Positions 3 to 61,775 of a DNA stretch of 64,000 nucleotides are shown in pieces. The translations under genes were made by a program, and so were the position numbers. This DNA comes from a virus. How positions within the stretch are numbered: position 1 is the first letter of the stretch; each line of letters opens with the position of its first letter. Location of the stretch: positions 1 through 64,000 of IMG/VR virus record IMGVR_UViG_3300044825_001064; one strand, given 5' to 3'. Below the pieces are notes generated by a model, which was not told the DNA's origin, did not search any database, and saw only the letters and a list, made by a program, of their open reading frames with translations.

Positions 3-458
3 GCCCTTGAGGAGTTAGTCAAGCATAATCTCCGATTTGTGGTCTATACGGTGCGCAAACTAACCGCATGGAATCACAGCCGAGTGCCGCAAGAGGATTT
101 AATTGGACTGGGTAACGAGGCATTACTTAAGGCCGCTCGCCAATGGACTCCAAGCAATGGGGCAAAATTTGCCACTTACGCCAAGCGTTTTATTATCCGA
201 GGCGTTGAGCGAGGGTTAGACAATACCGAGAACCTTGTGCGTATACCCATCAAAGTACGAGAAGAAATCCGTAAAATGACCTATACGGAGCGAGCAGTAA
301 CGCAAACATTAGGTCGGGCCCCTACCATCCATGAACTGGCAACAATATTAAACAAGACCCCGAAAAGGATCAGCCAGCTCAAATTTTATTTAATCCAAGA
401 GCCAACATCGTTGGACGCATTAAACTTAGATAAATTGGAAGAGGAGCAAGATGATTAA
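3..458 (+). CDS. Phage sigma-70 family factor, regions 2-3 only (5' end outside window)
   Basis: Sigma-70-like factor that would direct RNA polymerase to phage promoters. The open frame runs in from the left edge (151 codons visible), so the true start is not seen. Region 2 is clear: NLRFVVYTVRKL, then DLIGLGNEALLKA and the FATYAKRFIIRGVERGL block that in housekeeping sigmas forms the -10 binding helix. Region 3 follows (VRIPIKVREEIRKM, then GRAPTIHELATILNKTPKRI, EPTSLDA). The protein ends in an acidic tail (EEEQDD) with no region 4, the part that reads -35 boxes and contacts activators. The stop overlaps the next gene by 8 bp. It is a plausible reader of the GCGTATTAGT promoters in this window. 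The family call is strong, the promoter link is inferred. Confidence 0.87.
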   Translation, partial: ALEELVKHNLRFVVYTVRKLTAWNHSRVPQEDLIGLGNEALLKAARQWTPSNGAKFATYAKRFIIRGVERGLDNTENLVRIPIKVREEIRKMTYTERAVTQTLGRAPTIHELATILNKTPKRISQLKFYLIQEPTSLDALNLDKLEEEQDD

Positions 459-1172: not shown

Positions 1173-1392
1173 GGCACACTTGGCACACTTTTTTCCAGTA
1201 TTACCCTCTACCTTATAAATTTATTTTCTTTTTTAAAAAATAAAAAAAGTGAAAAGAAGTGTGCCTACTGTGCCACTGACCACTTAAGTCATTGATTTTA
1301 TTAAAGCGAGCCAAAAAGAAGTGTGCCAATTTACTGCCAATTTGCTGCCAATTTTGGGTCGAAGTGTGCCAATTTTCATAATGTGAAATATT
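1173..1392 (+). repeat. Iteron-like repeat region upstream of the primase-helicase gene
   Basis: Gene-free region 1115-1438. It holds five copies of AAGTGTGCC: two tandem inverted copies near 1173-1190, and direct copies at 1257, 1319 and 1362. CTGCCAATTT units lie in between, and an A/T-rich tract runs about 1205-1250. The block from about 1253 to 1392 recurs, diverged but colinear, at 61296-61435. Iterons plus an A/T-rich stretch next to a replicative primase-helicase fit a replication origin or a multi-site regulator region. Neither is shown directly. Confidence 0.6.
1373..1389. promoter_or_regulatory. Operator-like near-palindrome upstream of primase-helicase
   Basis: TTTTCATAATGTGAAAT is a partial dyad (TTTCA-N5-TGAAA). 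Close relatives lie at 14361, 61417, 61776 and 61802, all upstream of genes. It sits about 17 bp before the phage promoter motif, where a bound protein could control the primase-helicase gene. Confidence 0.45.
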
Positions 1393-1405: not shown

Positions 1406-1422
1406 GCGTATTAGTTAGGATA
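1406..1422 (+). promoter_or_regulatory. Phage promoter motif, primase-helicase copy
   Basis: GCGTATTAGT at 1406-1415 followed by TAGGAT and an A at 1422. This copy also carries a perfect TTGACA (1394-1399) exactly 17 bp before TAGGAT, so host sigma-70 might use it too. The gene starts at 1439 behind a GGA-type ribosome site. Confidence 0.75.
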
Positions 1423-1438: not shown

Positions 1439-3751
1439 ATGCTTCAAAAACCACCCGCTTTACCCGTAGACTTTAATGAGATACCGCTAGACCTTAAGAC
1501 CATCCCTCGTTTCCTATTGTGGAAATATACCTTGGTCGGTGATGCGGAGCACCAAAAATGGTCTAAGTTACCCGTCCAGCCGACAGGCAAGGCGGCTTCA
1601 TCTACCAACCCAGCAACATGGACAGATTTTTTAACAGCACAAAAGGCGTACGAGAATGGGAATTTTGATGGAATTGGCTTTGTTTTTACAGGTGACGATG
1701 ATCTTGTTGGTGTCGACATTGATGACTGTCGCGATCCTACCACCGGTGATTTGTCTGATTTTGCTAGAAAAATTATCGACAATGTTAAAGGCTATTGTGA
1801 AGTCAGTCCGTCCGGCACAGGAGTAAAGATATTCACCAGGGCAAACCTCCAGTCCGCCCACGTTGACCATTCCGTAGGCCTGGAGATCTACCCAAAGTCC
1901 CGCTACTTCACCATCACAGGGCATAAGTTACAAGGCGATCTGCCAACTGAGAAACAAGATCTGTCCGCCCATGTGCCGGCTCGCACATTGACCCGCACAG
2001 GCGACGATGATTTTGCGAACTACACGCCACCAGTCGAGGGATGGGATTTGCCCCGCGTTGAAGCGGAATTGCTATCCGAACTCGATCCTGAGTGTGGCTA
2101 TGATGAATGGAAGAATATCGGCATGGCACTGCACCATCAGTTTGAGGGTGACGTAGAGGCGCTCGAAGCATGGGATCGTTGGAGCGCACAGTCACACAAG
2201 TACACCAGCACAGGGATGAATTCCTGCGCGAATAAATGGAAATCATTTCGAGGGCAAGGCATCACACTGCGCTCATTGATTTTTAAGGTGAACCAAAAAA
2301 AGTTACAGACTGCACTAGCAAACGGCGAAATCGTGCTCGACCACTCCAATCCACTGGATCATGCACGTAAGTTTTTGCAGTCTAATTACGCCGTTGAGGG
2401 CGGGTACAAATTAGTGCACTATGCGCAAGAGTTTTTTATCTACACAGGCACGCACTACACGTTTATCGAAGAGGCCACCATCCGCTCGCAGATGTATAAG
2501 TTTTTAGATAAATGCCAGAAGCAAGACCGTAAGGGCAACCTTGTGCCGTTCAATGCCAATCCGGCCGCAGTGAACTCGGCCATCGATGCGCTAAAGTCAA
2601 TCGTGCACCTTGCTAATGATCCAAACTCCAAACCACCAGTATGGCTTGATGGGTTTGAAATAAACAACCCACCCGCAGGGAAGTTGATCAGTATGAAAAA
2701 CGGCCTATTCCAAATGGATCAGCTCGTTTTATTCCCGCACTCACTGGGCTTCTTTACATACAACAGTTTGCCGTTCGAGTACAACCCCAGCGCAAAATGC
2801 CCACAATGGCTTAAATTCCTCGATGATGTGTGGGGCGATGATGAGGAGGCAATCAGCCTATTACAGGAGTATTTTGGTTACATTCTCAGTGGCGACACGA
2901 TGCAACAAAAGTTTTTAAACATCATAGGTCCGCGACGTAGCGGGAAGGGCACGATCAACCGCGTGCTCACCGAACTGCTGGGTCAGGCCAACGTGGTATC
3001 GCCGCAGATGGAGGAGTTGTGTGATACGTTCGGGCTGCAGCCATGGTTAGGCAAACAGCTAGCGAGTTTCACCGACGCGCGTGTGACGCCGAAGAACTCA
3101 GCCGGCGTAGTGTCGCAGCTATTGCGTATCGTAGGTGCGGATACCGTGACAGTGAACCGTAAAAACAAAGAGTCGTGGTCAGGCTATCTGCCAACCCGCA
3201 TCATTGTGTATTCTAACGAGATGCTTCAGTTGGCCGAGAACTCCAACGCACTGACCGGCCGTATGTTGGTGCTTACTATGACAAACAGCTTCTTTAATAA
3301 AGAGGACTTTTCTTTGGCAGATCGACTGACTCAAGAGTTGGCCGGCATTTTTAACTGGGCGATCGAGGGGCACATCAGGCGCACCAAGCGGACTGGGCAG
3401 CGATTCATTCAGCCAAAGTCAGCAGAGGGTACGCTCGAACTCATGACCGAGTTGTCAAACCCGCTAGCCGCATTTATGACTGAAGTTGTAGAGTTCGGCG
3501 ACGGGTACGAGGTCGGTAAAGACGATTTGTTTGCGTGCTACAAACACTGGGCGATCAAGAAGAATTACCACCCAGGCACAGAGATGTCGTTTAAACGCCG
3601 TTTCTTAGCCGCCACCCAAGAGTTGCGGGTGCAGAGTTACCGGCGCAGAGAAGGCGATGAGACTGTGTACGTGTACCTTGGCGTCAAACTTAAACCAAAG
3701 GCACAGGCGTACGCCGATGGCATATCTAACTTTGAAAAAGAGATATTTTAA
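1439..3751 (+). CDS. Primase-polymerase / SF3 replicative helicase (770 aa)
   Basis: Replication protein that probably primes and unwinds phage DNA. An archaeo-eukaryotic-type primase domain occupies about residues 1-180, with GVDIDDC (91-97) as the metal-binding acidic motif and SPSGTGVKIF (123-132). It resembles the primase-polymerase of deep-sea phage NrS-1. A PriCT-2 type linker spans about 205-283. A D5/P4-type superfamily 3 helicase follows, with Walker A GPRRSGKGT at 497-505, a Walker B-like LASFTDAR near 540 and motif C RIIVYSNEM near 585-595. It has its own promoter motif and repeat region upstream and is followed with no gap by small genes. Confidence 0.9.
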   Translation: MLQKPPALPVDFNEIPLDLKTIPRFLLWKYTLVGDAEHQKWSKLPVQPTGKAASSTNPATWTDFLTAQKAYENGNFDGIGFVFTGDDDLVGVDIDDCRDPTTGDLSDFARKIIDNVKGYCEVSPSGTGVKIFTRANLQSAHVDHSVGLEIYPKSRYFTITGHKLQGDLPTEKQDLSAHVPARTLTRTGDDDFANYTPPVEGWDLPRVEAELLSELDPECGYDEWKNIGMALHHQFEGDVEALEAWDRWSAQSHKYTSTGMNSCANKWKSFRGQGITLRSLIFKVNQKKLQTALANGEIVLDHSNPLDHARKFLQSNYAVEGGYKLVHYAQEFFIYTGTHYTFIEEATIRSQMYKFLDKCQKQDRKGNLVPFNANPAAVNSAIDALKSIVHLANDPNSKPPVWLDGFEINNPPAGKLISMKNGLFQMDQLVLFPHSLGFFTYNSLPFEYNPSAKCPQWLKFLDDVWGDDEEAISLLQEYFGYILSGDTMQQKFLNIIGPRRSGKGTINRVLTELLGQANVVSPQMEELCDTFGLQPWLGKQLASFTDARVTPKNSAGVVSQLLRIVGADTVTVNRKNKESWSGYLPTRIIVYSNEMLQLAENSNALTGRMLVLTMTNSFFNKEDFSLADRLTQELAGIFNWAIEGHIRRTKRTGQRFIQPKSAEGTLELMTELSNPLAAFMTEVVEFGDGYEVGKDDLFACYKHWAIKKNYHPGTEMSFKRRFLAATQELRVQSYRRREGDETVYVYLGVKLKPKAQAYADGISNFEKEIF

Positions 3752-7359: not shown

Positions 7360-8692
7360 GGATCAATTACACCCATATCAAAAGGAGCTGATATCAAAAG
7401 CAAAAACCATACCCAATCTGGGCCTGTTCCTACCCCCGGGACTGGGGAAGACGGCGACGACGCTCACCATCATTGCGGAGCAGATGCAAGGAAAGACGCT
7501 GATCATCGCGCCCAAACGCGTGGCGGAGACAGTGTGGGATGCGGAAGTGTCGAAGTGGCAGCATCTGTCCCACTTACGCGTATCGAAGATCATGGGGACG
7601 CCGAACCAGAGATTATCCGCCTTGACTTCTCCCGCCGACATTTATCTGATTAATTTGGAAAACGTGGCTTGGCTTTGTGACGCCCAACCTAAGTTAGTGT
7701 TCACTAACTTAGTAATTGACGAGTCCAGCCGGTTCAAGGATTCTAGCACAAAAAGGTTCAAAGCTCTTAAAAAGCATTTAAAGGGCTTTCAGAGGCGTTT
7801 AATCCTCACAGGTACGCCCACCCCTCAGGGCCTCGGAGATCTCTGGTCCCAGGTGGGTATTTTGGACTTAGGGCAGCGTTTGGAGACCAGTCTGACCAAG
7901 TTCCGCGACAAATACATGGCGCCGGACCAAATGAACCGCCATACACGTGTGGTATATAGCTGGAAGTTGCGGCCCGGCTCGGACAAATTGATTAAGGACA
8001 AGATCAGCGATATCTGCTTCTCGCTCAAGGCAGAAGACTACCTGACCTTGCCTAAGGTAACATTAACGTATCATAAAGTAGGGTTAACGGAACATTTATA
8101 TGACAAATACAGTGCGCTTAGAAAAGACATGGTCGCTACTATCGACGGCGAAGTCATCACGGCTCCTACGGCAGCAGCACTGGCGGGGAAACTCCTCCAG
8201 TTCACATCAGGCGCGCTGTATGCAGAAGACGGAGAAGCACACCGGTTACACGACGCTAAGGTGGAATTCCTTGAGTCGATCATGGAAGAGTATTCCTCCC
8301 CAACACTCGTCTTTTACCACTTCAAGCATTCTTTACAGAGGATTCAAGAGGCCTTTCCAGAGGCTGTGGTGCTGGATGATGACAACATCCAAGCGTGGCG
8401 AGATGGCAAGATTCGTATGCTCTTGGCCCACCCCCAGTCAGGGGGCATTGGGCTTAATCTACAGTGCAACGTTGGAGAAACGGCACAAATCGTGTGGTTC
8501 GATCTGCCGTGGAGCTCAGAGAACTACATCCAAGCTAACGCTCGGATCCACCGCCAAGGGCAAGAAAAGCCGGTTATTATACACCATCTGACCGTACCCA
8601 AAAGTATTGACGAGCAGGTGATTCGCGTATTGGAAGGCAAAATAAATTTGCAAGAAGCCCTTCTAAATGACCTAAATTGCGTATTAGTATAG
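7349..8692 (+). CDS. SNF2-type DNA helicase/translocase (447 aa)
   Basis: Superfamily 2 ATPase. Motif I PPGLGKT (29-35), motif II VIDESS (122-127), motif III LTGTPTP (153-159), motif V GGIGLNLQ near 363 and motif VI QANARIHRQGQ near 395-405 match the SNF2 group found in phage replication cassettes with VRR-NUC, DUF2800, DUF2815 and polymerase A. It is short for the family because it lacks extra accessory domains. The last codons (N-C-V-L-V) are written by a GCGTATTAGT promoter motif embedded in the gene's 3' end. Confidence 0.9.
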   Translation: MLTRDQLHPYQKELISKAKTIPNLGLFLPPGLGKTATTLTIIAEQMQGKTLIIAPKRVAETVWDAEVSKWQHLSHLRVSKIMGTPNQRLSALTSPADIYLINLENVAWLCDAQPKLVFTNLVIDESSRFKDSSTKRFKALKKHLKGFQRRLILTGTPTPQGLGDLWSQVGILDLGQRLETSLTKFRDKYMAPDQMNRHTRVVYSWKLRPGSDKLIKDKISDICFSLKAEDYLTLPKVTLTYHKVGLTEHLYDKYSALRKDMVATIDGEVITAPTAAALAGKLLQFTSGALYAEDGEAHRLHDAKVEFLESIMEEYSSPTLVFYHFKHSLQRIQEAFPEAVVLDDDNIQAWRDGKIRMLLAHPQSGGIGLNLQCNVGETAQIVWFDLPWSSENYIQANARIHRQGQEKPVIIHHLTVPKSIDEQVIRVLEGKINLQEALLNDLNCVLV

Positions 8693-8695
8693 TCA
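8679..8695 (+). promoter_or_regulatory. Phage promoter motif inside helicase 3' end, leaderless type
   Basis: GCGTATTAGT at 8679-8688, six bases, then the A of an ATG at 8695. The motif overlaps the last codons of the helicase gene. If transcription starts at the conserved A, the mRNA for the next gene has no leader. Confidence 0.7.
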
Positions 8696-9009
8696 TGAGA
8701 AAAATAAAAACCAACCACATTATTAAGGCCGCAACTCCCCGTCTTTCCGATGAGGAGTTGGACCCCATTGAACAAGATGATAACGAAGGCGTATCGGCCG
8801 ACATGATGGAGGCGCACTTCCCCTGGAGTCCGGAGGACATCATTGATGTCAAGCGCTTGATCCAAGAACGCATGCCCGAGAAACAGCGTTATATATTCGA
8901 GTCGTTTTTAGAGGGTTTGACCCACAATGACATACTTGTCAGCGAGAAGTATTGGCGCTATCATTTTGCTAAAGGCATCGAGTTTATTAAGAAGGAATTA
9001 AAGATATGA
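8695..9009 (+). CDS. Possible sigma region-4-like protein (104 aa)
   Basis: The ATG at 8695 is chosen over an upstream in-frame TTG because that TTG lies inside the promoter motif. Residues 1-45 are acidic and probably disordered. Residues 57-104 (RMPEKQRYIFESFLEGLT, then HNDI, LVSEKYWRYHF and GIEFIKKEL) follow the pattern of a sigma region 4 helix-turn-helix (ER-x-P-x-R-x-x-x...GLT-x-x-EI...S-x-x-x-V), but with about four residues missing in the turn. It might complement the region-4-less sigma at the window's left end, as T4 gp33 does for gp55. This is inference; an unrelated helix-turn-helix protein is the alternative. Confidence 0.5.
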   Translation: MRKIKTNHIIKAATPRLSDEELDPIEQDDNEGVSADMMEAHFPWSPEDIIDVKRLIQERMPEKQRYIFESFLEGLTHNDILVSEKYWRYHFAKGIEFIKKELKI

Positions 9010-9197
9010 ACTTTATTGTTGAGCACCGAGTCAACGGCAACTATACGATGGACACCATCTCTGGCGTTGAGGATCTTGACACCAGTCAGTTCGATAATAT
9101 TATTGGGATTTGGGTCTGCGATACAGCGGCCGAAACCAAGATCATGGAAAAAGAATTAAGAGAGATGCGTCATGCACGATCCAGTCAACCATCCTAA
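9006..9197 (+). CDS. Hypothetical protein (63 aa)
   Basis: Starts with ATGA overlap on the preceding gene, so it is likely co-translated. A beta-rich small protein (FIVEHRVNGNYTMDTISG) with a helical C-terminus. The last 26 bp overlap the DUF3310 gene. No family was recognised. Confidence 0.55.
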   Translation: MNFIVEHRVNGNYTMDTISGVEDLDTSQFDNIIGIWVCDTAAETKIMEKELREMRHARSSQPS

Positions 9198-9375
9198 ACA
9201 CTATACCGCCCATCCTAGCGGTATTGAGTGCATTCAGGTTACCGAGCACATGGGCTTTTGCTTAGGCAACGCAGTTAAATATATTTGGCGTGCAGATCTA
9301 AAACATGACGCCGTAGAGGATTTACGTAAAGCCGTGTGGTACATTGAACGAGAAATCGCAAGGAGAATAAAATGA
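9172..9375 (+). CDS. DUF3310 protein (67 aa)
   Basis: Matches the phage DUF3310 family (also annotated as nucleotide kinase-like SaV). DPVNHPKHY opens the protein, followed by GIECIQVTEHMGF, LGNAVKYIWRA and a final helix. The length is typical for the domain alone. Its role is not settled; in many phages it lies among replication and nucleotide metabolism genes, as here. Confidence 0.88.
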   Translation: MHDPVNHPKHYTAHPSGIECIQVTEHMGFCLGNAVKYIWRADLKHDAVEDLRKAVWYIEREIARRIK

Positions 9376-10267: not shown

Positions 10268-10496
10268 TTTTATCCGCCAATTTTTAAAGCACCGCAAGTT
10301 TGGAAACAACATCATCCAAGCCGTGGAAGAAAAAACAAAAAAGACAACCGCCGAACAGGAAATAGAACACCGCCTACGGGCCGAAGCCATGACCAAAGTT
10401 ATTGTCAACGAGATGATGCCGACCTTCCGTAAAATGATGGAAGCCGAGGAGAAAGCCAAGGAAAAGCCCATCCGTAAAATCATTGTTCCGGACTAG
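10260..10496 (+). CDS. Hypothetical helical protein (78 aa)
   Basis: Basic N-terminus (IRQFLKHRKFGNN) and a long charged helix with Glu/Lys repeats. It ends the small-gene run just before a phage promoter motif. No family recognised. Confidence 0.57.
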   Translation: MDNFIRQFLKHRKFGNNIIQAVEEKTKKTTAEQEIEHRLRAEAMTKVIVNEMMPTFRKMMEAEEKAKEKPIRKIIVPD

Positions 10497-10515
10497 GGCG
10501 GATTTGGTCACAAAA

Positions 10516-10532
10516 GCGTATTAGTTAATATA
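10516..10532 (+). promoter_or_regulatory. Phage promoter motif
   Basis: GCGTATTAGT at 10516-10525, then TAATAT and A at 10532. The predicted transcript starts AGGGTAG and can form a 5' hairpin with CCCTA near 10567. The 114-base leader to the ATG at 10646 has no other gene and ends in a TAGGAGAAA ribosome site. Confidence 0.72.
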
Positions 10533-12021: not shown

Positions 12022-12050
12022 AAAAAGCCACCTAATTGGTGGCTTTTTTG
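12022..12050 (+). terminator. Rho-independent terminator
   Basis: AAAAAGCCACC / GGTGGCTTTTTT with a 6-base loop and a T-run. It ends the operon containing the TerS candidate and directly abuts the next promoter motif. Confidence 0.88.
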
Positions 12051-12066
12051 CGTATTAGTAAGAGTA
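12050..12066 (+). promoter_or_regulatory. Phage promoter motif
   Basis: GCGTATTAGT at 12050-12059, six bases ending in T, then A at 12066. It starts in the last base of the terminator T-run region. The DUF2800 gene begins at 12092. Confidence 0.75.
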
Positions 12067-12091: not shown

Positions 12092-13219
12092 ATGACCGCG
12101 CATGCTCTACTGAGCGCTTCCGGCTCTAAGCGATGGCTAACTTGCACGCCGTCCGCTCGCCTCGAAGCTACACTTCCCGAACCAAAACGTGGCTCCAATG
12201 CTTTTGACTTTAGTCAAGAAGGCACGATGGCCCACTCTTTGGGCGAGATCAAGTTACGATATCATTATGGGCAGATTGGAATTGAGGAGTTTGAACGTGA
12301 ATACGAAATCATTAAAAACACGCCGTACTACAACGAAGAGTTTGAAGCATATGTCGACAATTACGTCCTCTATGTACGATCCCAAATCGGTGAGGGCGAT
12401 CTACCACTTTTTGAACAGCGTGTGGACTTCTCTGACTGGGTTCCTGATGGCTTTGGTACAGCCGATGTGGTTATACTTTCTAAGCACTCCGTTCGAGTCA
12501 TCGACCTCAAATTTGGGAAGGGTGTGCCAATCTATGCACTCGACAACCCACAACTACGACTATATGCTCTTGGTGCATATTCAAAATTTAAAGAAGATTT
12601 TCCGGACATCAAAGAGGTTTCCTACACGATCCTCCAGCCTCGCTTGGACAGCATATCAACTGACGGCACCACAGTCACCAAGCTACTCGATTGGGCTAAC
12701 TCCTTCGTTAAACCCAAAGCAAAAAAGGCTTGGGCTGGCGTAGGCGAGTTTTTACCTGGCGATCATTGTCAATTTTGTAAAGCAAAAGCGCAATGCCGCG
12801 CCCGCTCCGATTTCAACAACGAGCTGGCTAAATTAGAATTTAGGCCACCGCCATTACTAGACGAAAAAGAAATGCAATTAGTATTGGCAAAAGCACAAGA
12901 CTTACGTACGTGGGTCAATGATGTAGAAGAGTACGCATTAGAAAAAGCGATTAATGAAAATGTTATACCCGAAGGATACAAGCTATCCAATTCAGTAACA
13001 CACCGCAAGATTTCAGATCATGAACTCGCCGCAGTAGTGTTAAAAGAAAAGGGCATGAACGAGGAACTAATCTGGGAACCTCGCAAGCTCAAATCAATAG
13101 CCTCATTAGAAAAGATCAACAAACAAGTTGCAGCATGGTTGGGCGATTTAGTATTACGGCCAGACGGTGCGCCTAAACTTGTGAGAGCCAAGGAAACAGC
13201 TAAGGAGGACTTTAAATGA
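12092..13219 (+). CDS. DUF2800 PD-(D/E)xK exonuclease (375 aa)
   Basis: Cas4/RecB-like nuclease of the DUF2800 family found in phage replication modules, probably used for recombination or end processing. It begins HALLSASGSKRWLTCTPSA, as usual for the family. GTADVVIL (122-129) and RVIDLKFGKG (136-145) supply the catalytic Asp and D-x-K. The cysteines in GDHCQFCKAKAQCRAR (about 224-239), together with Cys17 or another early Cys, could form an iron-sulfur cluster as in Cas4 and AddB. Own promoter motif upstream; a small Cys-rich gene follows. Confidence 0.9.
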   Translation: MTAHALLSASGSKRWLTCTPSARLEATLPEPKRGSNAFDFSQEGTMAHSLGEIKLRYHYGQIGIEEFEREYEIIKNTPYYNEEFEAYVDNYVLYVRSQIGEGDLPLFEQRVDFSDWVPDGFGTADVVILSKHSVRVIDLKFGKGVPIYALDNPQLRLYALGAYSKFKEDFPDIKEVSYTILQPRLDSISTDGTTVTKLLDWANSFVKPKAKKAWAGVGEFLPGDHCQFCKAKAQCRARSDFNNELAKLEFRPPPLLDEKEMQLVLAKAQDLRTWVNDVEEYALEKAINENVIPEGYKLSNSVTHRKISDHELAAVVLKEKGMNEELIWEPRKLKSIASLEKINKQVAAWLGDLVLRPDGAPKLVRAKETAKEDFK

Positions 13220-14393: not shown

Positions 14394-14410
14394 GCGTATT
14401 AGTATAAGTA
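14394..14410 (+). promoter_or_regulatory. Phage promoter motif, SSB copy
   Basis: GCGTATTAGT at 14394-14403, ATAAGT, then A at 14410. The predicted RNA begins AAGGGTAGACG and can pair with the GGCCCCTATT sequence 15 bases later, giving a 5' hairpin. Confidence 0.75.
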
Positions 14411-14468: not shown

Positions 14469-14987
14469 ATGACACAAGCAGCTAAAGTAAAAGTTGTAAC
14501 TGGTAAGGTTCGTTTCTCCTATGCCAACGTATTCACTCCCAAAGCCTCCGTTGAGGGCGGTGCACCTAAGTACTCCGTTTCTATCATCATTCCTAAATCG
14601 GATAAAGAAACTATCGCTAAATTGCAAAAAGCATTTGAGGACACCAAAGCCGGTGCGGCAGCCTATTTTGGCGGCACAGTACCAAAAGGTCTCAAAGGCG
14701 GTTTGCGTGATGGCGACGAAGAGAAAGACGATCCAGCATACGCTAACAGCTATTTTATCAACGCTAACTCGGCACAAAAGCCCGGCGTTGTAGATGCTGA
14801 CCTCAATCCAATCTTGGATCAGTCAGAGTTTTATAGTGGCTGCTATGGCCGCGCTTCAATCACGTTCTACCCATACAATGCCCAAGGTTCTAAAGGTATT
14901 GCATGTGGCTTGAACAATGTTCAAAAGTTAGAAGACGGCGAGAAATTAGGCGGCGCAACATCCGCCGCAGCAGACTTCGCAGTTTAA
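14469..14987 (+). CDS. DUF2815 single-stranded DNA binding protein (172 aa)
   Basis: Matches the DUF2815 family, an OB-fold single-strand DNA binding protein of phage replication modules. Features are KVRFSYANVFTPKA at residues 12-25, KYSVSIIIPKSD, KGLKGGLRDGDEEKD and the aromatic GCYGRASITFYPYNAQG strand near 125-140. The length is typical. The tail is Ala-rich (SAAADFAV) rather than the acidic tip of host SSB. Its own promoter, a leader hairpin and a terminator downstream make it a single-gene unit, as expected for an abundant protein. Confidence 0.9.
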   Translation: MTQAAKVKVVTGKVRFSYANVFTPKASVEGGAPKYSVSIIIPKSDKETIAKLQKAFEDTKAGAAAYFGGTVPKGLKGGLRDGDEEKDDPAYANSYFINANSAQKPGVVDADLNPILDQSEFYSGCYGRASITFYPYNAQGSKGIACGLNNVQKLEDGEKLGGATSAAADFAV

Positions 14988-23738: not shown

Positions 23739-26468
23739 TTATGTCACCTTACGTTTTGCATCTAATAAATATGCGAGAGCGCCCTTGCTCTTGGGCGGTA
23801 ATTTTTTAGGGTCGTGGTTTTGTGCATGTTCCCTAATTAACTGCATCATCTGACTAAGGGCACTTGCCCCTGCATCATTACTACCATTTCCTAGCTTTGA
23901 TACTACATCGGCTGGAATAACAAACTCACCGTCTGCCAACATAGCCGGTACTGAATCGCTTGTGCCATCACCAGGCCCTTTGACGTATGTATTCTCTAAC
24001 GAATTTAACCCACCCTCACTGTAAAACTGTGGGTTGTGGCCTTCTACATTACCGCCAGCCGCATATTCTTTTTGCTCATACTGACCAAACTGCACTGGCC
24101 TAAAACGACGCATACGTTCTAATGGGCTGCCGCGTGTAAGTGTTGGCCGTAATGTTGGACTAGGTGAAGACGGCATTTGCACTTGCTCGCCGTCTGCATA
24201 CTTTTGGATTGGCGTTGCAAGATGATTTAACGCAGACATAAAATGCGACGTAGAACCACCATTTGCAGCATTAAAAGTAATGGGCGCAGGCTGCTGATAG
24301 CCATATTGCGGATTTGGCTGCACTGGATTATAGGTCATTTCAAATTCTGGTTCATCAGCAAATTGGAAAGCTGATCCTTTAATTAAATTTGGTGTTAAAT
24401 GTTGAATGTCCGGAGCTTCAATTGGGCGCTGCACTTGTGGCTGTGGTTGAGGTGTAGTTCCGGTATCCGTGCCAGTGCCACCACCACCAGTACTGGTATC
24501 CATGAATGATGATCCAGCGCCTAACAGTGCCGATCCCAACAGTCCTAAATTAAGCCCTGTTCCGCCAGTGCTTCCGGTGCCGGTTCCAGTGCCTGTGCCA
24601 GTGCCGCCTGTTCCAGTGCCAGTACTAGGTGGCCGTGGTCTGGGGGTGCGTACGGTTTTATTTGCGACATTAAACATCCCCAAATTAATCCCTTTAAAGG
24701 GACTAGTAGTACCTTCTGCACTAGTCTGTCTAACTAAATCGCCGTCAGCATTGTAAATATCTTTACTACCGTCAGGATTTGTAACGGTAATTTCGCCGGT
24801 ATTTGGATCAGTCGTATAATTTAAGTTATACTTTGTTGGTGCGGCTTCTGCAATGTACGCGTCTGGGTCATTTGGGTTTGTTGACAGATTATAATAACCT
24901 GCCGAGGCACCTTCCTCTAATGGTGCACCAGCACCTTGCGCTATCGGCACTAACGTTATTTCGTTGCCTTCGGGGTCTTTACCAACCACACTCCACATTC
25001 CAGTGTTTGGATTCTGTTTATAAACACCCTCTACTTTTGCAACAACGTCTTTTTCACTTTGAGACTCGTCTTGCGCGCCAAAACTTCCAGCAACGTTTCT
25101 TGTCATTAAGTCTTGAACGTTACGTGCTGCTTCTCCAGGATCTACACCTTGAAGCAACTGTGACTGGAATGCAGCTTTGTACTCAGGCGGTAAATCAGAA
25201 ATTTGCGCTTCAGCTTCTGCTTTGTTAACTTCGTACAACTCTTTTACTTCGGCAATTGCTGCCATGCCGTCTTCACCTTTTGCAACGGCTTGGTCGTAAA
25301 TTTCTTTGTAGTATGTTGGTAAACGATTTGCTGACTCATTAATAGCAGCTTGACGCTCAGTTAATTCTGTTGCCGTTTCGCTAAAATTACCATACGCAGC
25401 TTCCAACGCATCGCCAGCATCAACAAGTTCAGCTTGTTGCTGAACAAGTATTTCATTTAATGGTTCAATCTGACCTTTTAATTCCGTCAATTTAGCATTG
25501 GTCTGATTGAAGTCTGCTAAGTTTGCTTCACGCTGTGCGTTTAGCTCATTAAATTTTTCCGCTGCTGCTTGCATGCCTGACACGTCTTTCGCATCTTTAG
25601 CGGCATAGTATTGAGCTTTATATTCTTCCAACTGCGGATCTATTTCCGCATTTTTTTCTTCAGCAGCTAATCGTTGCTCTTCAGCTGTTTTGTACAACTC
25701 GTTTGCTTCTTCAATCAACGGATTAATTTTATCTGCGTTTGATTGGTAATTAAATTTTATATCTTGGAATTTGTTTAATGCTTCACTTAATGCGGAGTTT
25801 ACAATTCCATAAGCTGCAGTATTGGCAATTGCTTTTTCAATGTCTTTACCAGTTACGCCAGCAACCGCTGCAGCTGCACCAACGTTACCAATAATGTTAC
25901 CGGCTGTTTTGCTTAGTTCTGCAATTTGGCCGTTTGTAAATGCGGTGCTTAACGCGCCACTAACTGCACCACTTAATGCGCCAGTAAACGGATCGCGACC
26001 TTGCAATACTGCACTAACTGCATTACCAACACTGCGGCCAGCAGCATTCTGAATAATCTGTACGGTTGAAGGATCTAATCCTTCAGTTACGTTTCTAACA
26101 ACGTCTGCAACAGGAATACCCGCAGTAATACCTGCGCTTAAACCACCGATAATGCCAGCGGTTGCAATCTTACTAATGTCACCACCGTTGACCGCAGCAA
26201 TGGCCGCATTGGCAATAGCGGCATTAGTTGCTGCTGAAATAATAGAACCCATACTACCAGCAACAGCAATCTCAGCAGCAGTAAATCCAGCTAATTGCGC
26301 TGCGGCTACACCAGCACCAAGACCACTTGTTGCAACGGTGATACCAATAGCCATAATGGCCGGAATGGGGTTGCGGCCAATGTTTTCAACAGTTGACCCT
26401 ACCCCTTTAGCAACGCCTTCGACGGCTTTAGCAAGCGGGCTTATTACTGGAATTCCGCCGCCGCTCAT
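23739..26468 (-). CDS. Large ejection-type protein with glycine-zipper membrane region (909 aa)
   Basis: Residues about 30-240 are Ala/Gly-rich with repeated small-residue spacing (PAIMAIGITVATSGLGAGVA), like membrane-active ejection proteins. Residues 245-400 form a long coiled coil (Glu/Ala/Lys/Gln). A Gly-Thr repeat linker lies near 610-650. The C-terminus holds YVKGPGDGTSDSVPAMLADG, then EFVIPADVVSKLGNG, a block found at the end of many phage virion proteins. YAAGGNVEG and FYSEGGLNSL precede it. It overlaps the upstream gene by 4 bp. It probably helps form the genome-delivery channel across the host envelope. Confidence 0.7.
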   Translation of the reverse strand: MSGGGIPVISPLAKAVEGVAKGVGSTVENIGRNPIPAIMAIGITVATSGLGAGVAAAQLAGFTAAEIAVAGSMGSIISAATNAAIANAAIAAVNGGDISKIATAGIIGGLSAGITAGIPVADVVRNVTEGLDPSTVQIIQNAAGRSVGNAVSAVLQGRDPFTGALSGAVSGALSTAFTNGQIAELSKTAGNIIGNVGAAAAVAGVTGKDIEKAIANTAAYGIVNSALSEALNKFQDIKFNYQSNADKINPLIEEANELYKTAEEQRLAAEEKNAEIDPQLEEYKAQYYAAKDAKDVSGMQAAAEKFNELNAQREANLADFNQTNAKLTELKGQIEPLNEILVQQQAELVDAGDALEAAYGNFSETATELTERQAAINESANRLPTYYKEIYDQAVAKGEDGMAAIAEVKELYEVNKAEAEAQISDLPPEYKAAFQSQLLQGVDPGEAARNVQDLMTRNVAGSFGAQDESQSEKDVVAKVEGVYKQNPNTGMWSVVGKDPEGNEITLVPIAQGAGAPLEEGASAGYYNLSTNPNDPDAYIAEAAPTKYNLNYTTDPNTGEITVTNPDGSKDIYNADGDLVRQTSAEGTTSPFKGINLGMFNVANKTVRTPRPRPPSTGTGTGGTGTGTGTGTGSTGGTGLNLGLLGSALLGAGSSFMDTSTGGGGTGTDTGTTPQPQPQVQRPIEAPDIQHLTPNLIKGSAFQFADEPEFEMTYNPVQPNPQYGYQQPAPITFNAANGGSTSHFMSALNHLATPIQKYADGEQVQMPSSPSPTLRPTLTRGSPLERMRRFRPVQFGQYEQKEYAAGGNVEGHNPQFYSEGGLNSLENTYVKGPGDGTSDSVPAMLADGEFVIPADVVSKLGNGSNDAGASALSQMMQLIREHAQNHDPKKLPPKSKGALAYLLDAKRKVT

Positions 26469-26947
26469 TTTGCGTTCACCGTAATAATTTGACCTTTACC
26501 TGTTTCTAAGTCCACCGACTTGGCGGTGTAGTTAATTTTTGCTCGTTTTAGTAATGGCTCAATTGCAATTCCGCTTGACGGAAAAGTCATAGTCTGAATG
26601 CCGGCAACAACCAGCGCTTTTTCCAACTGCATTAAAGTCTTGACAAAAGTCTGCGGGCCGTCGGCCGTAAAGATAAGACCATCGGCGGTTCCGTTTCCTT
26701 TATTGTCCATAAACAAAACGGTATTGTTTGCTCGAATTAAACGGTACTGTGGCTGTTTGACCATATGGGCGATTGCCGAATAGGTCGTTTCTGGATCCAT
26801 ATTCAAGTTGAATTTTTTGATATCATGTTCAATGATGTCGTAAATCTCCATCTCTTTGACGTTGGCCTTGTTCAAACCACCTTCTTTAGAGACGTGTTCA
26901 AGCCCACCTTGGGAGCCGTCATTTTGTGGTGATTTGTTATCGGTCAT
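26465..26947 (-). CDS. Hypothetical protein (160 aa) opening the ejection operon
   Basis: First gene after a phage promoter motif. The N-terminal 25 residues are Gly/Ser/Asn-rich and flexible. The rest is alpha/beta with NNTVLFMDNKGNGTADGLIF and a C-terminal LLKRAKINYTAKSV. This somewhat resembles an acyltransferase-like fold but lacks a clear acetyl-CoA motif. Overlaps the 909-aa gene. Probably a virion-associated or assembly protein. Confidence 0.62.
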   Translation of the reverse strand: MTDNKSPQNDGSQGGLEHVSKEGGLNKANVKEMEIYDIIEHDIKKFNLNMDPETTYSAIAHMVKQPQYRLIRANNTVLFMDNKGNGTADGLIFTADGPQTFVKTLMQLEKALVVAGIQTMTFPSSGIAIEPLLKRAKINYTAKSVDLETGKGQIITVNAK

Positions 26948-26972: not shown

Positions 26973-26989
26973 TATATACACTAATACGC
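26973..26989 (-). promoter_or_regulatory. Phage promoter motif, ejection operon
   Basis: Minus-strand GCGTATTAGT (26989-26980), GTATAT, then A at 26973. The next gene starts at 26947. It would drive the run of genes down to 19340. Confidence 0.75.
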
Positions 26990-27012
26990 AATAAACGGCA
27001 TTTTTGCCCTAA

Positions 27013-32360: not shown

Positions 32361-32528
32361 TTATCTCCCGCGGCCAGAAGCTCGCTTAGTTACTTTTTTA
32401 GGTAGATTGGCTTGTGCTTTACCAGCTTTTACAAACTCTTTACCAACCTTCTTGGGAATACCAAGAGTCGATTTGCCAGCAGCTGCAGCGTACATGGCTT
32501 TCATTTGCTGCTCAGATTTCATTGGCAT
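32361..32528 (-). CDS. Small DUF3008-like basic protein (55 aa)
   Basis: Starts [20 protein letters not shown] and ends in a Lys/Arg-rich tail ([13 protein letters not shown]). Its start overlaps the stop of the 280-aa gene by 1 bp. It lies in the gap between two larger structural genes. Similar short MPxKSxxQxxxM proteins (DUF3008) are common in phages. Function unknown; the charge suits DNA or capsid-interior binding. Confidence 0.65.
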
Positions 32529-33370
32529 TATTTTGCTCCAAATGCTTTACCAATTGATGCACGACGCTCTTCTGGCGTCATTTTGCCAGGGGTTGCTTGT
32601 GCTGGGCGCTTACCCTCAATGATATCTTGAGCAACTTGGGAAGTAACACCGCCCGTATTCATTTTCTTTACTTTGCCGCCTTTTTTAGCGTAGCCCATTT
32701 TGTTACGTACGTCGGTTGGCAGTTTAGCTAAGCCGGGGTTCTTTTCAGCGTCGACTGATTTAAGAACTGAACCGCCGTCAGCATACTTTTTTACCTTGCC
32801 GCCTTTTTTCTGTCCAGTTACCGGCGTAGCCATACCACCTTGTGTAACTTCTTGCATTGCGTTTGCAAGACCTGGAGGCGTTTGACCCTGAGCTGCTGCA
32901 GCTGCGGCTGCTTTGCGACGCTCCATGGCTAGCCGTTGCTCTCTAGCAATACGGTTTTGCTCGGGCGTTCCCATGACGTTGTTTCTTAAACGTGTGGCGC
33001 CTCTTTCTAGCAATCCACCAACCACAGGCACTTTACCAATCTTACGCAGTAAGCTACCGCCAATATCATCTGGATTATCGGCTACAACTTCTTGACCGTC
33101 GGCATACTTTTTGATTGATTTTCCGCCGCAGTATTTTTTAACAGTGCCAACTTTTTTCTTGGCGCGGCCACCTTTGTTTAATTTAGAAAGATTGGTTTTC
33201 TCACCTTCATGGCTTTGCGTATCGTGCATCTTAAATGCTTTTTTGACGATAGCTTTATCTTGGGCGATGTCTTCACGCATTTCACTCTTTTCAGAATGAC
33301 GGGATTTATACTTTACTGCTTTGCCTTCTTTGAAGCATTGCATTTTGGTTGATTGTTTAAAGCCTTCCAT
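32528..33370 (-). CDS. Lysine-rich internal virion-type protein with GG-V repeats (280 aa)
   Basis: Very basic. The N-terminal [19 protein letters not shown], then [20 protein letters not shown], forms a block I recognise from aquatic podoviruses. It carries repeated short units: [23 protein letters not shown] and [14 protein letters not shown]. These KKxGGxVKK/ADGGxV units recur in other proteins of this phage. It is the first gene after a promoter motif. A DNA-binding internal head protein is plausible. Confidence 0.62.
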
Positions 33371-33416: not shown

Positions 33417-33433
33417 TATATTTACTAATACGC
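33417..33433 (-). promoter_or_regulatory. Phage promoter motif followed by terminator-like hairpin
   Basis: Minus-strand GCGTATTAGT (33433-33424), AAATAT, then A at 33417. TTGACC lies 16 bp before AAATAT. The predicted RNA begins AAGGG-N8-CCCTT followed directly by TTTT, which is a short terminator-like or stabilising hairpin at the very 5' end. Confidence 0.72.
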
Positions 33434-33452
33434 TGAAAAGGTCAAAAACGCC

Positions 33453-33971
33453 CTAGGTGCCAGCTAAAAACAAGGCCCGCTCAATGGTCCGTCTTTTGCG
33501 CAAGACGTCTGGATTGGACCAGTTTAAAAATGCGTCTCCTGCTTTGTCCATCTGCCCCTGTTTGAGGTACTTCACCACGTCGGAGCGCAGGAAGTTATCT
33601 GGGCCAATGTTATGGCATAGGCTGTGCAAGGCGTCAATTTGTTGCCTTTTTAAACCCATCATAAACACGCTTTCTAGGGCTTTAGAGCAGAGTTCAAGGT
33701 CCCTATGTAGGAGACCCCTTACCTCATCTTCTGTAAGCTCTACACGCAGCAAATGATGGTCTTTGCGCTTAATTAAATGCCCTACCCCAATCGTCCAGTG
33801 TCCCTGGCTGTCACGGTAGGCTTTATGGCGCTTACCTTCAAAATACTCAATAAGCTCAATGGTTGAGCTAGTTACCCAAGGTTCTACGGGCTCTGGTTTA
33901 ATGCTAGTTTTCCAAGCAGCATGTGCCAAAAACACACAGGCGCACGCGAACGCAATCCAGGTCTTCACCAT
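33453..33971 (-). CDS. GH24 lysozyme, probable signal-anchored endolysin (172 aa)
   Basis: Muramidase that breaks the host cell wall at lysis. The catalytic triad pattern E45-x8-D54-x5-T60 is intact (YFEGKRHKAYRDSQGHWTIG). Residues 5-20 (WIAFACACVFLAHAAW) form a hydrophobic, Ala/Cys-rich N-terminal segment. This fits a signal-anchor-release endolysin, which reaches the periplasm through the Sec system without the holin. GGAGGT ribosome site. Next to the M15 peptidase and holin genes. Confidence 0.9.
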   Translation of the reverse strand: MVKTWIAFACACVFLAHAAWKTSIKPEPVEPWVTSSTIELIEYFEGKRHKAYRDSQGHWTIGVGHLIKRKDHHLLRVELTEDEVRGLLHRDLELCSKALESVFMMGLKRQQIDALHSLCHNIGPDNFLRSDVVKYLKQGQMDKAGDAFLNWSNPDVLRKRRTIERALFLAGT

Positions 33972-46362: not shown

Positions 46363-50007
<3,645 letters not shown>

Positions 50008-50722: not shown

Positions 50723-51160
50723 TTAAGCAGCGGCGTTGAGAGTTGCCTCGGCAGCAGCCCAAGCGGCAGCAGGATTGCCATTGCCGGCCCACTGTGTTAA
50801 AGTACCAGCAGCAAGGTCAACACCAGTAGCAGATTGGTTAACTGGTTGGTATACACCAGTGCTAACTTCGTAACCAGCTAAAGTGTGAACAACAGCGCCG
50901 TAGTTCAATACAGCACCGCGCACGCCTGCGTAACGAGTATCGGCATTTAAAATGTTAAACGCTTGACCATCAGTAGTTTGTACTTGTGGGAGGGTTAAAA
51001 CTACTGGAGCAGCGGGACCGCCGTCAGCAGCAGAGAGGATAATTACAGTTGCGCCAGCGTCGATAGCGATTGGTGATGTGTCAGCAGCGGTAATATATAC
51101 CAATGGGGTTGCAAAACCGTTAAGCGATCTGACTGGGCCGGTAAAAGTAGTAAAAGACAT
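50723..51160 (-). CDS. Putative capsid decoration protein (145 aa)
   Basis: Beta-rich Ala/Gly/Thr protein (TPLVYITAADTSPIAIDAGA; VVLTLPQVQTTDGQAFNILN) ending in an Ala-rich helix. It has its own promoter motif with a 90-base hairpin-containing leader and an AAGGAAC ribosome site, directly behind the capsid gene's terminator. Strong private expression next to the capsid gene suggests a protein made in high copy, such as a decoration protein. This is inferred from context. Confidence 0.6.
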   Translation of the reverse strand: MSFTTFTGPVRSLNGFATPLVYITAADTSPIAIDAGATVIILSAADGGPAAPVVLTLPQVQTTDGQAFNILNADTRYAGVRGAVLNYGAVVHTLAGYEVSTGVYQPVNQSATGVDLAAGTLTQWAGNGNPAAAWAAAEATLNAAA

Positions 51161-51249: not shown

Positions 51250-51266
51250 TATTTTAACTAATACGC
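51250..51266 (-). promoter_or_regulatory. Phage promoter motif after capsid terminator
   Basis: Minus-strand GCGTATTAGT (51266-51257), TAAAAT, then A at 51250. The predicted leader contains a CTACCG-N8-CGGTAG hairpin and other pairings before the ATG at 51160. Confidence 0.75.
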
Positions 51267-51291
51267 AAAAACCATAAAATACGCCCCATAA

Positions 51292-55015: not shown

Positions 55016-55207
55016 CTAGTTTTCTTCGTCGTCTTCCGTTAAAATTTCGTTTACAATGTCAAGGGCGGTTTGCAAGCCCTCTATTTTGCCAACGTATTGC
55101 TTATAATCATCAAAAGTATTGATGTTGGTCCCCGCAGTAACGGTTTCTGCTTGGGCCTTAATCTCAGCGCTTACGCGACCGATAATTTCAGAAATAATGT
55201 CCTTCAT
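55016..55207 (-). CDS. Hypothetical helical protein (63 aa), leaderless candidate
   Basis: Acidic helical protein (IISEIIGRVSAEIKAQAETV; ALDIVNEILTEDDEEN). Its ATG is exactly at the conserved A of a promoter motif, so it may be translated from an mRNA with no leader. A shared transcript from the portal side is the alternative. No family was recognised. Confidence 0.6.
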   Translation of the reverse strand: MKDIISEIIGRVSAEIKAQAETVTAGTNINTFDDYKQYVGKIEGLQTALDIVNEILTEDDEEN

Positions 55208-55223
55208 ATTCTAACTAATACGT
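55207..55223 (-). promoter_or_regulatory. Phage promoter motif (one mismatch), leaderless type
   Basis: Minus-strand ACGTATTAGT (55223-55214), TAGAAT, then A of ATG at 55207. First base is A instead of G. Would drive the GroES-like, scaffold and capsid genes. Confidence 0.65.
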
Positions 55224-55249
55224 CGAACAGAATAAATCCGCCCTAAATA

Positions 55250-55468
55250 TTAATATTTTGGACCGAATTGATCTTTTACGTTGCTGTAAGGGCCAACTTT
55301 ACCGGCATTTTTCATTTTGCCTTGTGCTGCGCCTTTTTTCCAGTTGTTGTCGCGATGGCTGCCAGATGGGCCATTGTCGATGTTTTTGTCGCCAGGGCCG
55401 CCGCCGCTGGATAATTTACCTGTTTCTTGGTAAGTCTGTCTAAAGCCTTTTAAATTTTCATCGGCCAT
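55250..55468 (-). CDS. Small Gly/Asn/Lys-rich protein (72 aa)
   Basis: Low-complexity hydrophilic protein (GKLSSGGGPGDKNIDNGPSG; KKGAAQGKMKNAGKVGPYSN). Its start overlaps the portal stop by one base, so it is coupled to portal translation. Probably disordered. No family recognised. Confidence 0.6.
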   Translation of the reverse strand: MADENLKGFRQTYQETGKLSSGGGPGDKNIDNGPSGSHRDNNWKKGAAQGKMKNAGKVGPYSNVKDQFGPKY

Positions 55469-58383: not shown

Positions 58384-58400
58384 TATTTTAACTAATACGC
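58384..58400 (-). promoter_or_regulatory. Phage promoter motif, portal copy
   Basis: Minus-strand GCGTATTAGT (58400-58391), TAAAAT, A at 58384. The predicted RNA begins AAGGGCATCC. The 64-base leader to the portal ATG contains a 7-bp hairpin at 58338-58355. Confidence 0.75.
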
Positions 58401-58419
58401 TATTTAGGCCCATTCCGCC

Positions 58420-59865
58420 CTACTGCGCATACGGATTGGCAAATTTCTTGCGGGAGTTGTCGTCGGCATAGTCGTAGTCCCGTGCTGGTAGGGGGTCAAG
58501 CTGCAGCCAGCCAAGATCGCGCAGATACCGCAGCCCCTGGGACAATGCGTCCACATAGTCGTCGTGGCCGCCGGCCTCTGGAAAGGAACACACCTGCCGC
58601 AGGAACCGTTTGGTCCACGATGCAAACTCGCCTTTTTGGTTCGGGTCTTCTGGAATCCAGACTTTACCTTTGGCAATGAGCGGAGCCACGATGTTTAAAC
58701 GCTGGATTTTATCCGCACGGCCTGGGTTGTATCCCTGCACCGGCACACCGGAACCTTGAAGTTCCTGAATCAAGCTGATACCAGCGGATTTGTCTTCCAT
58801 CAAAATCAAATCGGCTTTGCGACCCTTTGCAAAGTCATTATCCGCGCCATACACGACTTCTTTAAAATCATTGACTACTTTGCGTCGCAACTCTGGGTAC
58901 GACAAATGTTCATCCCAGCAGTCAAGCAAAATGGCCGACATGCCGCCGTCGGTTTGCTCAAAAATTCCCCACACTTCGCACGCGGTGGGGTCGTTTACTG
59001 TTTTTTGTGAGGTTGCTGGGTCGTAGGAAGCAAGCACATACTCCAGCGTTGGTGTCGGTTTGTTGGCCGGCCACATGCGAAACTGTTTGCGCTTGATGAT
59101 ACCAGATTGCTCTGGATCAAGAATCTCACCGTAGATCTCCTGACGGCCAGTGTCGGTGCCTTCGTAGGTCTCAAGCTGTTTGAAAAATGTTTCGGATAAG
59201 TTTTGTCGGTTGTCGTACGATGATGCGTTGACTACGTAGACGTCGCCGCCGATTTTCCCTTCGTTAAGATCGACGATGAGTTCTTTTGGCTTGGGAGTGG
59301 TGGTAATAATCTGCTGCACTCGAGCGATGCGTGGGTCCCTAAGACGGAGGGTAAACTGTACTCCGTCGTAGGCTTCATCGATGTAATCAAACGCACACAA
59401 CTCGTCGAACCAGGCGCCGTGATATTGTTTACCTCGATAACGCTCGGGCTCCGAGGCGGGAATCCCCTGTATAAGAGATCCATTTGTAAGGGTGATTTCA
59501 AAGAGGGACTTGTTGTAATCGCGAATGAGTGACGCGGGAATGATATTGAGAAGTCCGGAGTCCCCCTCGAAACAAGTTGCACGTATATCGTTTGAGGTGG
59601 GAGCGGTGACGAGCCAGCGTGTATTGTCATAAACCCAAGCACGAATGCCAATCCAATGGCTAGCCGTATGCGTCTTCCCCGATCCTCGACCAGCCAGCAT
59701 AAGAAACGTATCATATTCTCCATCTTCAGGTTCTCTTTGATGCGGTAGCGCCTGCAGCGCCCATTTGACCTGCCACATCGTGGCGTCAAGTTGTGGTTTA
59801 GGCCAGTGCTTACGCTCCGCCGCAAATTTTTTCAGTTGTTCTTCTTGTTTTGCTGTTAATGGCAT
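58420..59865 (-). CDS. terL: Terminase large subunit (481 aa)
   Basis: Packaging motor and nuclease. ATPase: Walker A AGRGSGKT (58-65), Walker B AWFDEL (151-156, D154/E155) and coupling motif ITTTPKP (187-193). Nuclease: VLASYDPA (D282), LILMEDKSAG (E357/D358) and GGHDDYVDA near 445 supply the metal-binding acids. All key residues are present, so both activities are predicted intact. The N-terminus (MPLTAKQEEQL) overlaps the Hint-protein stop by 10 bp, and the Hint gene ends right where TerL begins. Confidence 0.95.
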   Translation of the reverse strand: MPLTAKQEEQLKKFAAERKHWPKPQLDATMWQVKWALQALPHQREPEDGEYDTFLMLAGRGSGKTHTASHWIGIRAWVYDNTRWLVTAPTSNDIRATCFEGDSGLLNIIPASLIRDYNKSLFEITLTNGSLIQGIPASEPERYRGKQYHGAWFDELCAFDYIDEAYDGVQFTLRLRDPRIARVQQIITTTPKPKELIVDLNEGKIGGDVYVVNASSYDNRQNLSETFFKQLETYEGTDTGRQEIYGEILDPEQSGIIKRKQFRMWPANKPTPTLEYVLASYDPATSQKTVNDPTACEVWGIFEQTDGGMSAILLDCWDEHLSYPELRRKVVNDFKEVVYGADNDFAKGRKADLILMEDKSAGISLIQELQGSGVPVQGYNPGRADKIQRLNIVAPLIAKGKVWIPEDPNQKGEFASWTKRFLRQVCSFPEAGGHDDYVDALSQGLRYLRDLGWLQLDPLPARDYDYADDNSRKKFANPYAQ

Positions 59866-60848: not shown

Positions 60849-61119
60849 AATAATTTTCAAGGACCCAACGGTCCAGCCAACGCCCTAACGGCGCTCGAAT
60901 GTTGTTTTGGACTTTGACTGGCAAATTCTGGATGTTTAGCGCACCATCAGTCAAGCCAAAGCGAAATTCTAAATACCTTCTTGTTTCCCGATCCAAAATG
61001 GCGGCGGGGACGTCTACTGAATCAAAGTTATTCACATCACACACAAGGATGCGCAATCCGACGAACTGTCCAATCGAATTTTCTAATGCACCTTGGATTT
61101 GATAAGCGTACTTGTTCAT
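60811..61119 (-). CDS. Hypothetical protein opening the packaging operon (102 aa)
   Basis: The ATG at 61119 coincides with the conserved A of a promoter motif (leaderless candidate); an in-frame TTG upstream lies inside the motif and is rejected. The product has alpha/beta composition (QFVGLRILVCDVNNFDSVDV) and a basic helix (LGRWLDRWVLENYY). The 3' end overlaps the Hint gene by 38 bp. Position before TerL could suit a packaging accessory role. No family was recognised. Confidence 0.6.
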   Translation of the reverse strand: MNKYAYQIQGALENSIGQFVGLRILVCDVNNFDSVDVPAAILDRETRRYLEFRFGLTDGALNIQNLPVKVQNNIRAPLGRWLDRWVLENYYGDTSDRKGVNP

Positions 61120-61135
61120 ACTCTCACTAATACGC
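61119..61135 (-). promoter_or_regulatory. Phage promoter motif, packaging operon, leaderless type
   Basis: Minus-strand GCGTATTAGT (61135-61126), GAGAGT, then A of ATG at 61119. It marks the left boundary of the non-coding control region. Confidence 0.72.
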
Positions 61136-61295: not shown

Positions 61296-61435
61296 AAAGA
61301 AGTGTGCCTACTGTGCCAATTTGTAGTTAAGTTGTTGATTTATATAGAAGGGACCCCCAGAGAAGTGTGCCAATTTGCTGCCAATTTGCTGCCAATCTTG
61401 ACCCGAAGTGTGCCAATTTTCATAATGTGAAATGC
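61296..61435 (+). repeat. Second copy of iteron-like region
   Basis: Direct, diverged copy of the block at 1253-1392. AAGTGTGCC occurs at 61300, 61363 and 61406, with CTGCCAATTTGCTGCCAAT between, and the block ends in the same CATAATGTGAAAT site. An A-rich tract (61274-61299) precedes it. The two inverted copies present at 1173-1190 are missing here, but GGGTAGGC is repeated at about 61211 and 61220. Origin or regulator-binding array. Confidence 0.6.
61417..61433. promoter_or_regulatory. Operator-like site
   Basis: TTTTCATAATGTGAAAT, identical to 1373-1389. Confidence 0.48.
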
Positions 61436-61532
61436 TTTATGACTTTTTGTTATAAAAAATTATAGAAACTTGACGGTTTGCACGGGGCCGCCGCGCCGGG
61501 GAGGGGGGTCTGCAAATCGGGGTATCGCTTTG

Positions 61533-61705: not shown

Positions 61706-61775
61706 ACGCGGGCGCGAAGGCTGAGCGCTGGGGTGGAGCAGATATTGCAGAGAGCAGAGGCCGAGCGCGCCCCAA

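Follow-up and report, generated by a model that had tools for sequence, protein, structure and literature searches.

The sigma gene and its surroundings

At the left edge of the analysed DNA (hereafter the window, a 64,000-nt part of a 65,804-bp record from a freshwater phage) lies the 3′ part of a sigma factor gene, and the promoters and genes considered together with it are collected in Table 1. Because the record carries a 127-bp direct terminal repeat, the genome was treated as a circle of 65,677 bp, on which the complete sigma gene runs from a GTG at 65566 across the circle junction to window position 458 and encodes 189 aa. The initial annotation had read this left-edge gene as carrying sigma-70 regions 2 and 3 and ending in an acidic stretch with no region 4, and this was confirmed: the window fragment matched Pfam Sigma70_r2 (3.4e-8) and Sigma70_r3 (2.2e-7), both above the curated cut-off, and Pfam detected no region 4 in the ORF. 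Recovery of the full gene and a structure prediction, both of which had been proposed there, agreed with that reading. For L004, a relative with an uninterrupted sigma gene, Pfam matches to regions 1.2, 2 and 3 scored 27.3, 31.3 and 26.2 bits, respectively, all above the cut-off, and the predicted structure resembled SigA/SigS chains, with low confidence for the last 20 residues. The sigma showed ~30% identity to the SigA/SigS structures along most of its length, and its fold matches were the sigma chains of initiation complexes; the W433 position was lost, together with some core-contact residues. Judged by its sequence, the phage protein is a group-1/2-like sigma factor that keeps regions 1.2, 2 and 3 and is cut off in region 3.2.

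Both clades described below have the small gene that follows sigma, one in 31 of 32 loci and the other in 45 of 49, and a Pfam scan of its product returned no match. One related contig (L102), which encodes a 52% identical sigma, was binned in a betaproteobacterial MAG, a possible hint at the host or a binned phage.

Table 1. Position and strand of the genes, promoters and other elements of the window considered in the text.
Feature	Position	Strand	Remarks
Region-4-less sigma gene, 3′ part (residues 39-189)	3..458	+	151-aa ORF, open at window edge
107-aa gene, start overlaps sigma stop codon	451..774	+	adjacent to sigma in almost every relative; other candidate for its partner
Palindrome TTTCATAATGTGAAA, centred ~-41 of primase promoter	1374..1388	+	fixed spacing in relatives
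Motif promoter, no -35 box, primase gene 1439-3751	1406..1422	+	
Motif promoter, no -35 box, ORF 8695	8679..8695	+	likely +1 on ATG of the ORF
Candidate free-standing sigma-region-4-like protein, 104 aa, leaderless	8695..9009	+	own motif promoter; after helicase gene
Two-box promoter	10496..10532	+	GGGCGG 10496-10501, motif 10516-10532
Motif promoter, no -35 box, exonuclease gene 12092-13219	12050..12066	+	
Motif promoter, no -35 box, upstream of ORF 14469-14987	14394..14410	+	
Two-box promoter, upstream of ORF 26465-26947	26973..27009	-	GGGC 27009-27006, motif 26989-26973
Two-box promoter, upstream of ORF 32528-33370	33417..33453	-	GGGCG 33453-33449
Two-box promoter, upstream of ORF 50723-51160	51250..51286	-	GGGCG 51286-51282; gap after capsid gene 51340-52257
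Two-box promoter, ORF 55016-55207	55207..55243	-	GGGCGG 55243-55238; likely +1 = first base of the ORF (leaderless)
Two-box promoter, portal gene 55468-58320	58384..58420	-	GGGCGG 58420-58415
Motif promoter, no -35 box, gene 60811-61119	61119..61135	-	likely +1 = A of ATG, leaderless
Possible host-type promoter TTGACC-17-CATAAT, upstream of early operon carrying sigma	61398..61426	+	not above chance in scan; palindrome copy overlaps -10

The sigma chain ends before region 4 throughout its relatives

Two scans of IMG/VR yielded 80 related loci, with sigmas of 51-86% identity. Wherever the gene end was present, the sigma was 186-191 aa long and stopped at a common point; the exceptions were L032, in which the gene is cut by the contig end, and L070, in which it is open at the last residues. 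This shared end point indicates that region 4 is absent by design and not through a local accident. A full-length sigma in related genomes, the case that the initial annotation had named as speaking against its reading, was sought and none was found. With a cut-off of E ≤ 10, Pfam Sigma70_r4 (PF04545) matched nowhere in the genome but was positive in 14 of 14 control genomes. The ten phage sigmas that were the nearest matches in an annotated collection all run past this end point into region 4 or an equivalent. In Caulobacter phage RW and Manatee Spring phage, both terminase-related, an annotated sigma was absent from the stretches examined. Conservation extends to the acidic tail, which can be aligned with no long gaps to the start of the housekeeping region 3.2 (QEPTSLDALNLDKLEEEQDD vs KEPISMETPIGDDEDSHLGDF); this argues for a truncated sigma finger and against an unrelated tail. 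In the polymerase, the chain would accordingly stop at the acidic tip of region 3.2, known as the 'sigma finger'.

A promoter motif with a predicted start site

The repeated sequence GCGTATTAGT was seen in intergenic sequences of the window, and the pattern CGTATTAGT-N5-YA occurred at 11 exact sites against 0.06 expected, so the promoter family described in the initial annotation is real; all 11 sites point in the direction of the gene that follows. A wider collection, taken from the window and its relatives, comprised 90 distinct stretches containing CGTATTAG, a few of which lie inside genes and are probably due to chance. At the terminase small-subunit gene (60811-61119, named from its location next to the terminase), the start codon falls exactly on the A of YA at 19 of 19 distinct sites of the window's clade and 18 of 18 of the sister clade, and in the window an ATG coincides with this position at three genes (8695-9009, 55016-55207 and 60811-61119). 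Given these start codons, the A of YA, five variable bases after GCG-TATTAG-T, is the likely +1 and the messages would be leaderless. This +1 would make TATTAG, a hexamer without the usual T at -7, the -10 element and GCG its extension.

Two other assignments were tried. In one, the -10 element was the TA-rich block at positions 11-16 (e.g., TAAAAT), the second such block of the motif, with GCGTATTAGT as its extension; this was rejected because the +1 would then fall inside the genes that have their ATG at position 17, and because motif position 16 is occupied by T or C, as expected for -1. A TTGACA upstream of the primase site at 1406 was rejected as a true -35 element, being absent in the relatives inspected.

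The motif might instead be an operator or a processing site and no promoter; we regard this as highly improbable in view of the start codon on the likely +1 at 37 of 37 terminase small-subunit sites, the orientation that always follows the gene in the window, and the rigid box at the -35 position described below.

Sigma and motif change together in a sister clade

In a sister clade whose sigmas are ~51-59% identical, the orthologous promoters carry TTTGCATTAGT in place of GCGTATTAGT. At the position of E. coli H455, the residue with which sigma reads the extended -10 element, all 24 distinct sigmas with the GCGT motif have K and all 36 with the TGC motif have N. The positions of E. coli 437 and 440 also separate the motif classes nearly, though incompletely, and Q437/T440 were rejected as the sole determinants of the change at -12, since in L074 the R/E pair occurs together with the TGC motif. 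L074 has N455, and its sigma branches outside both large clades in the tree; the GCGT form is therefore probably derived and arose in one step. As the motif switch is then a single evolutionary event, every difference between the clades co-varies with it, and not that in sigma alone. The co-variation supports the sigma as the reader of the motif, short of proof, and we consider it likely that the phage sigma reads it. The proposal of the initial annotation that the sigma reads this motif was thus strengthened by a diverged sister sigma with a coherently changed motif and a complete K/N split; its description of what is read as free of a -35 element was not supported.

A GGGC(G) box occupies the -35 position of one promoter class

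The absence of a -35 element, which the initial annotation had ascribed to the whole family, is true of one promoter class only. At 6 of the 11 window sites, mostly those of late genes, GGGC(G) lies at exactly -36..-32, 17 bp from TATTAG (6 two-box sites vs 0.02 expected). In the whole set, 30 of 88 plus 31 of 54 distinct sites had GGGC at the -35 position, always with the same spacing, and the GGGCG upstream of the sites shared one offset in 28 of 29 occurrences of the GCGT class and 24 of 25 of the TTGC class. Nine larger relatives carried 4-8 two-box sites per genome, and the reversed pattern occurred in none of them. The box follows the gene: it was found at 20 of 20 portal and 10 of 10 sites of the 10646 operon, and at none of the primase (0/30), gene 8695 (0/16) or exonuclease (0/3) sites. 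At the terminase small subunit it was absent from the window's clade (0/19) and present in the sister clade (14/18). In the window, the box is missing at the terminase small-subunit gene and at the replication genes.

A spacing of 17 bp between -35 and -10 is of the sigma-70 type, as it would be if the host sigma-70 read the motif promoters and the phage gene were decaying or encoded an anti-sigma-like decoy. GGGCGG and GCGTATTAG are nevertheless unlike TTGACA/TATAAT, the motif changes coherently between the phage clades, and 80 related loci preserve an intact sigma gene, so that we hold this explanation to be very unlikely. Still less credible is a single-subunit phage RNA polymerase as the reader of the motif: the 10-bp invariant core and the conserved start resemble the promoters of such enzymes, but no RNA polymerase was matched when the ORFs were scanned with Pfam and PHROGs, PF00940 was negative in the genome (a search run without a positive control), and a -35 box at a fixed 17-bp spacing suits a sigma-type reader.

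Gene 8695-9009 encodes a candidate reader of the box

Among the conserved small proteins found here, a sigma-region-4 signal of any strength was seen solely in the product of gene 8695-9009. All nine larger related genomes that were searched contain its family, as do 12 of the 14 records overall; the two records lacking a homologue are shorter fragments, and for one of them (L036) the near-identical relative (the L035 contig) has the gene. At least 420 relatives were found in IMG/VR. Pfam Sigma70_r4_2 was the commonest family match, obtained for 11 of 28 members with a best value of 4.7e-5, and the member in the window gave a sigma-region-4 match at E = 0.13. NCBIfam matches of the family were weak and mostly to sigma-70 families, one of them spanning residues 55-102. 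Sigma region 4 domains were the best fold matches in the PDB, all with E near 1, and the first helix of the HTH seems shortened. An hhalign comparison of the family profile with region 4 of ten phage sigmas was not significant. Given these weak Pfam, NCBIfam and fold signals and the failed profile-profile comparison, the protein was labelled region-4-like and not region 4. Besides this gene, the relative L010 encodes near sigma a second, diverged early-region protein (8979-9275) with a weak Sigma70_r4_2 match (0.0038).

The promoter of the gene lacked the GGGCG box in all 16 cases and again in all 36 of a further, partly overlapping set, as would be expected if the gene encodes the reader of the box; within the further set, 24 of 60 upstream regions had another gene directly before and no site was seen in them. 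In the main rival explanation, the sigma would read the extended -10 element everywhere while another phage or host protein, either an activator such as the 451-774 product or a coactivator like T4 gp33, reads GGGCG and the 8695 product has a different role. The weak sequence link between the 8695 product and region 4 is in keeping with such an arrangement, as is the 451-774 gene kept beside sigma; the 451-774 product is nonetheless without a Pfam match, no other conserved small protein found here shows a region-4 signal like that of 8695, and the consistently box-free promoter of 8695 fits a gene for the box reader, for which reasons another reader seems to us less likely. That the 8695 product reads the -35 box is what we infer tentatively.

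Palindromes and other features of the genome

In most relatives that have the TTTCATAATGTGAAA palindrome, 32 or 33 nt separate it from the primase motif downstream, and it is likely the site of an activator or a repressor. The stretch 61300-61440, upstream of the early operon, is imperfectly repeated at 1240-1400, upstream of the primase, with AGAAGTGTGCC..., TTTGCTGCCAATT and the palindrome in both. Several copies of the palindrome GCACCAATNTGGTGC lie in the GC-rich stretch 61560-61710 and are possible iterons or operators. The late region (19340-61119) encodes a GroES-like (Cpn10) protein, which is also annotated in the terminase-related phages named above, and a collagen-repeat protein, probably the product of the 1214-aa ORF at 46363-50007 (minus strand).

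Proposed mechanism and comparison with known systems

In the explanation that we favour, on balance, as the probable one, the early genes including sigma would be transcribed from a host promoter. The sigma, consisting of regions 1.2, 2 and 3 and the first half of the 3.2 finger, would bind the host core RNA polymerase, read the extended -10 element GCG-TATTAG-T and by itself fire the box-free 'middle' promoters of the primase, the exonuclease, gene 8695-9009 and, in the window's clade, the terminase small subunit. The 8695 product would then fill the vacant flap/-35 site, read GGGCG at -36..-32 and activate the portal and other late operons, and because this second part would be made by the first, a middle-to-late switch would be built in. 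The first part of the model, in which the sigma would open the middle promoters, is well supported. A need for both parts at two-box promoters is predicted from the way the box is distributed over the genes. The stronger statement, that a phage sigma is split over two genes, of which the first part works alone and switches on a leaderless, region-4-like second part for late -35 reading, we consider possible and somewhat short of probable. A literature search, with subscription papers largely outside it, returned no split sigma in phages.

T4 late promoters are not known to carry a -35 box. The parallel to T4 gp55 drawn in the initial annotation stands at the level of function, in that a phage sigma without region 4 would act with the host polymerase on a -10-type element, and does not extend to sequence: hhalign comparisons (A1 and A5 vs T4 gp55) were not significant, and gp55 gave a marginal region 2 match and none to regions 1.2 or 3, which this phage sigma has. 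About half of the promoters here, moreover, carry a box at the -35 position. T4 gp55 has a region 2 homology domain and a helix-loop-helix motif, and T4 gp33 is structurally unrelated to region 4 and alone does not bind DNA (PMC7892883); in the gp55/gp33 pair, as in the arrangement proposed here, a second small protein stands in place of region 4. The T4 late system also uses the clamp gp45, whereas no clamp was among the families found in this phage. In SigO-RsoA of Bacillus subtilis, the functions of regions 2 and 4 reside on separate proteins (PMC8103513), a split over two proteins like the one proposed. This system is bacterial, however, and RsoA has region 2 only, against regions 1.2, 2, 3 and part of 3.2 here, and the proposed second part in the phage is a separate gene controlled by the first. 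SPO1 gp34 and gp33 (197 and 101 aa) act at two-box late promoters (PMC3601020) and are likewise two small phage proteins, similar in size to the present ones. Unlike them, gp34 combines region 2 with its own marginal region 4 match, and gp33 belongs to Pfam Phage_Gene33 (PF25742), to which the 8695 family has no match; that SPO1 gp33/gp34 is the same system was rejected on domain content. Housekeeping SigA/RpoD factors, including phage-borne ones, align over regions 1.2, 2 and 3 at ~30% identity, but the ten nearest phage-borne sigmas continue into region 4 or an equivalent, whereas the present sigma stops in the finger. On these comparisons, T4 gp55/gp33 would be the nearest functional parallel and SigO-RsoA the nearest split sigma.

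If the proposed mechanism is true, this phage would run a sigma cascade through the addition of a domain and not through the swap of a factor, and a -35 reader encoded apart from it would illustrate the timing of gene expression by an added domain. A sigma that ends at the finger tip would offer a natural test of whether extended -10 promoters can do without region 4. Sigma specificity can be tested directly with the two clades, whose extended -10 elements differ and whose sigmas show a matching K/N difference at one residue, and the start sites predicted for the leaderless messages are exact.
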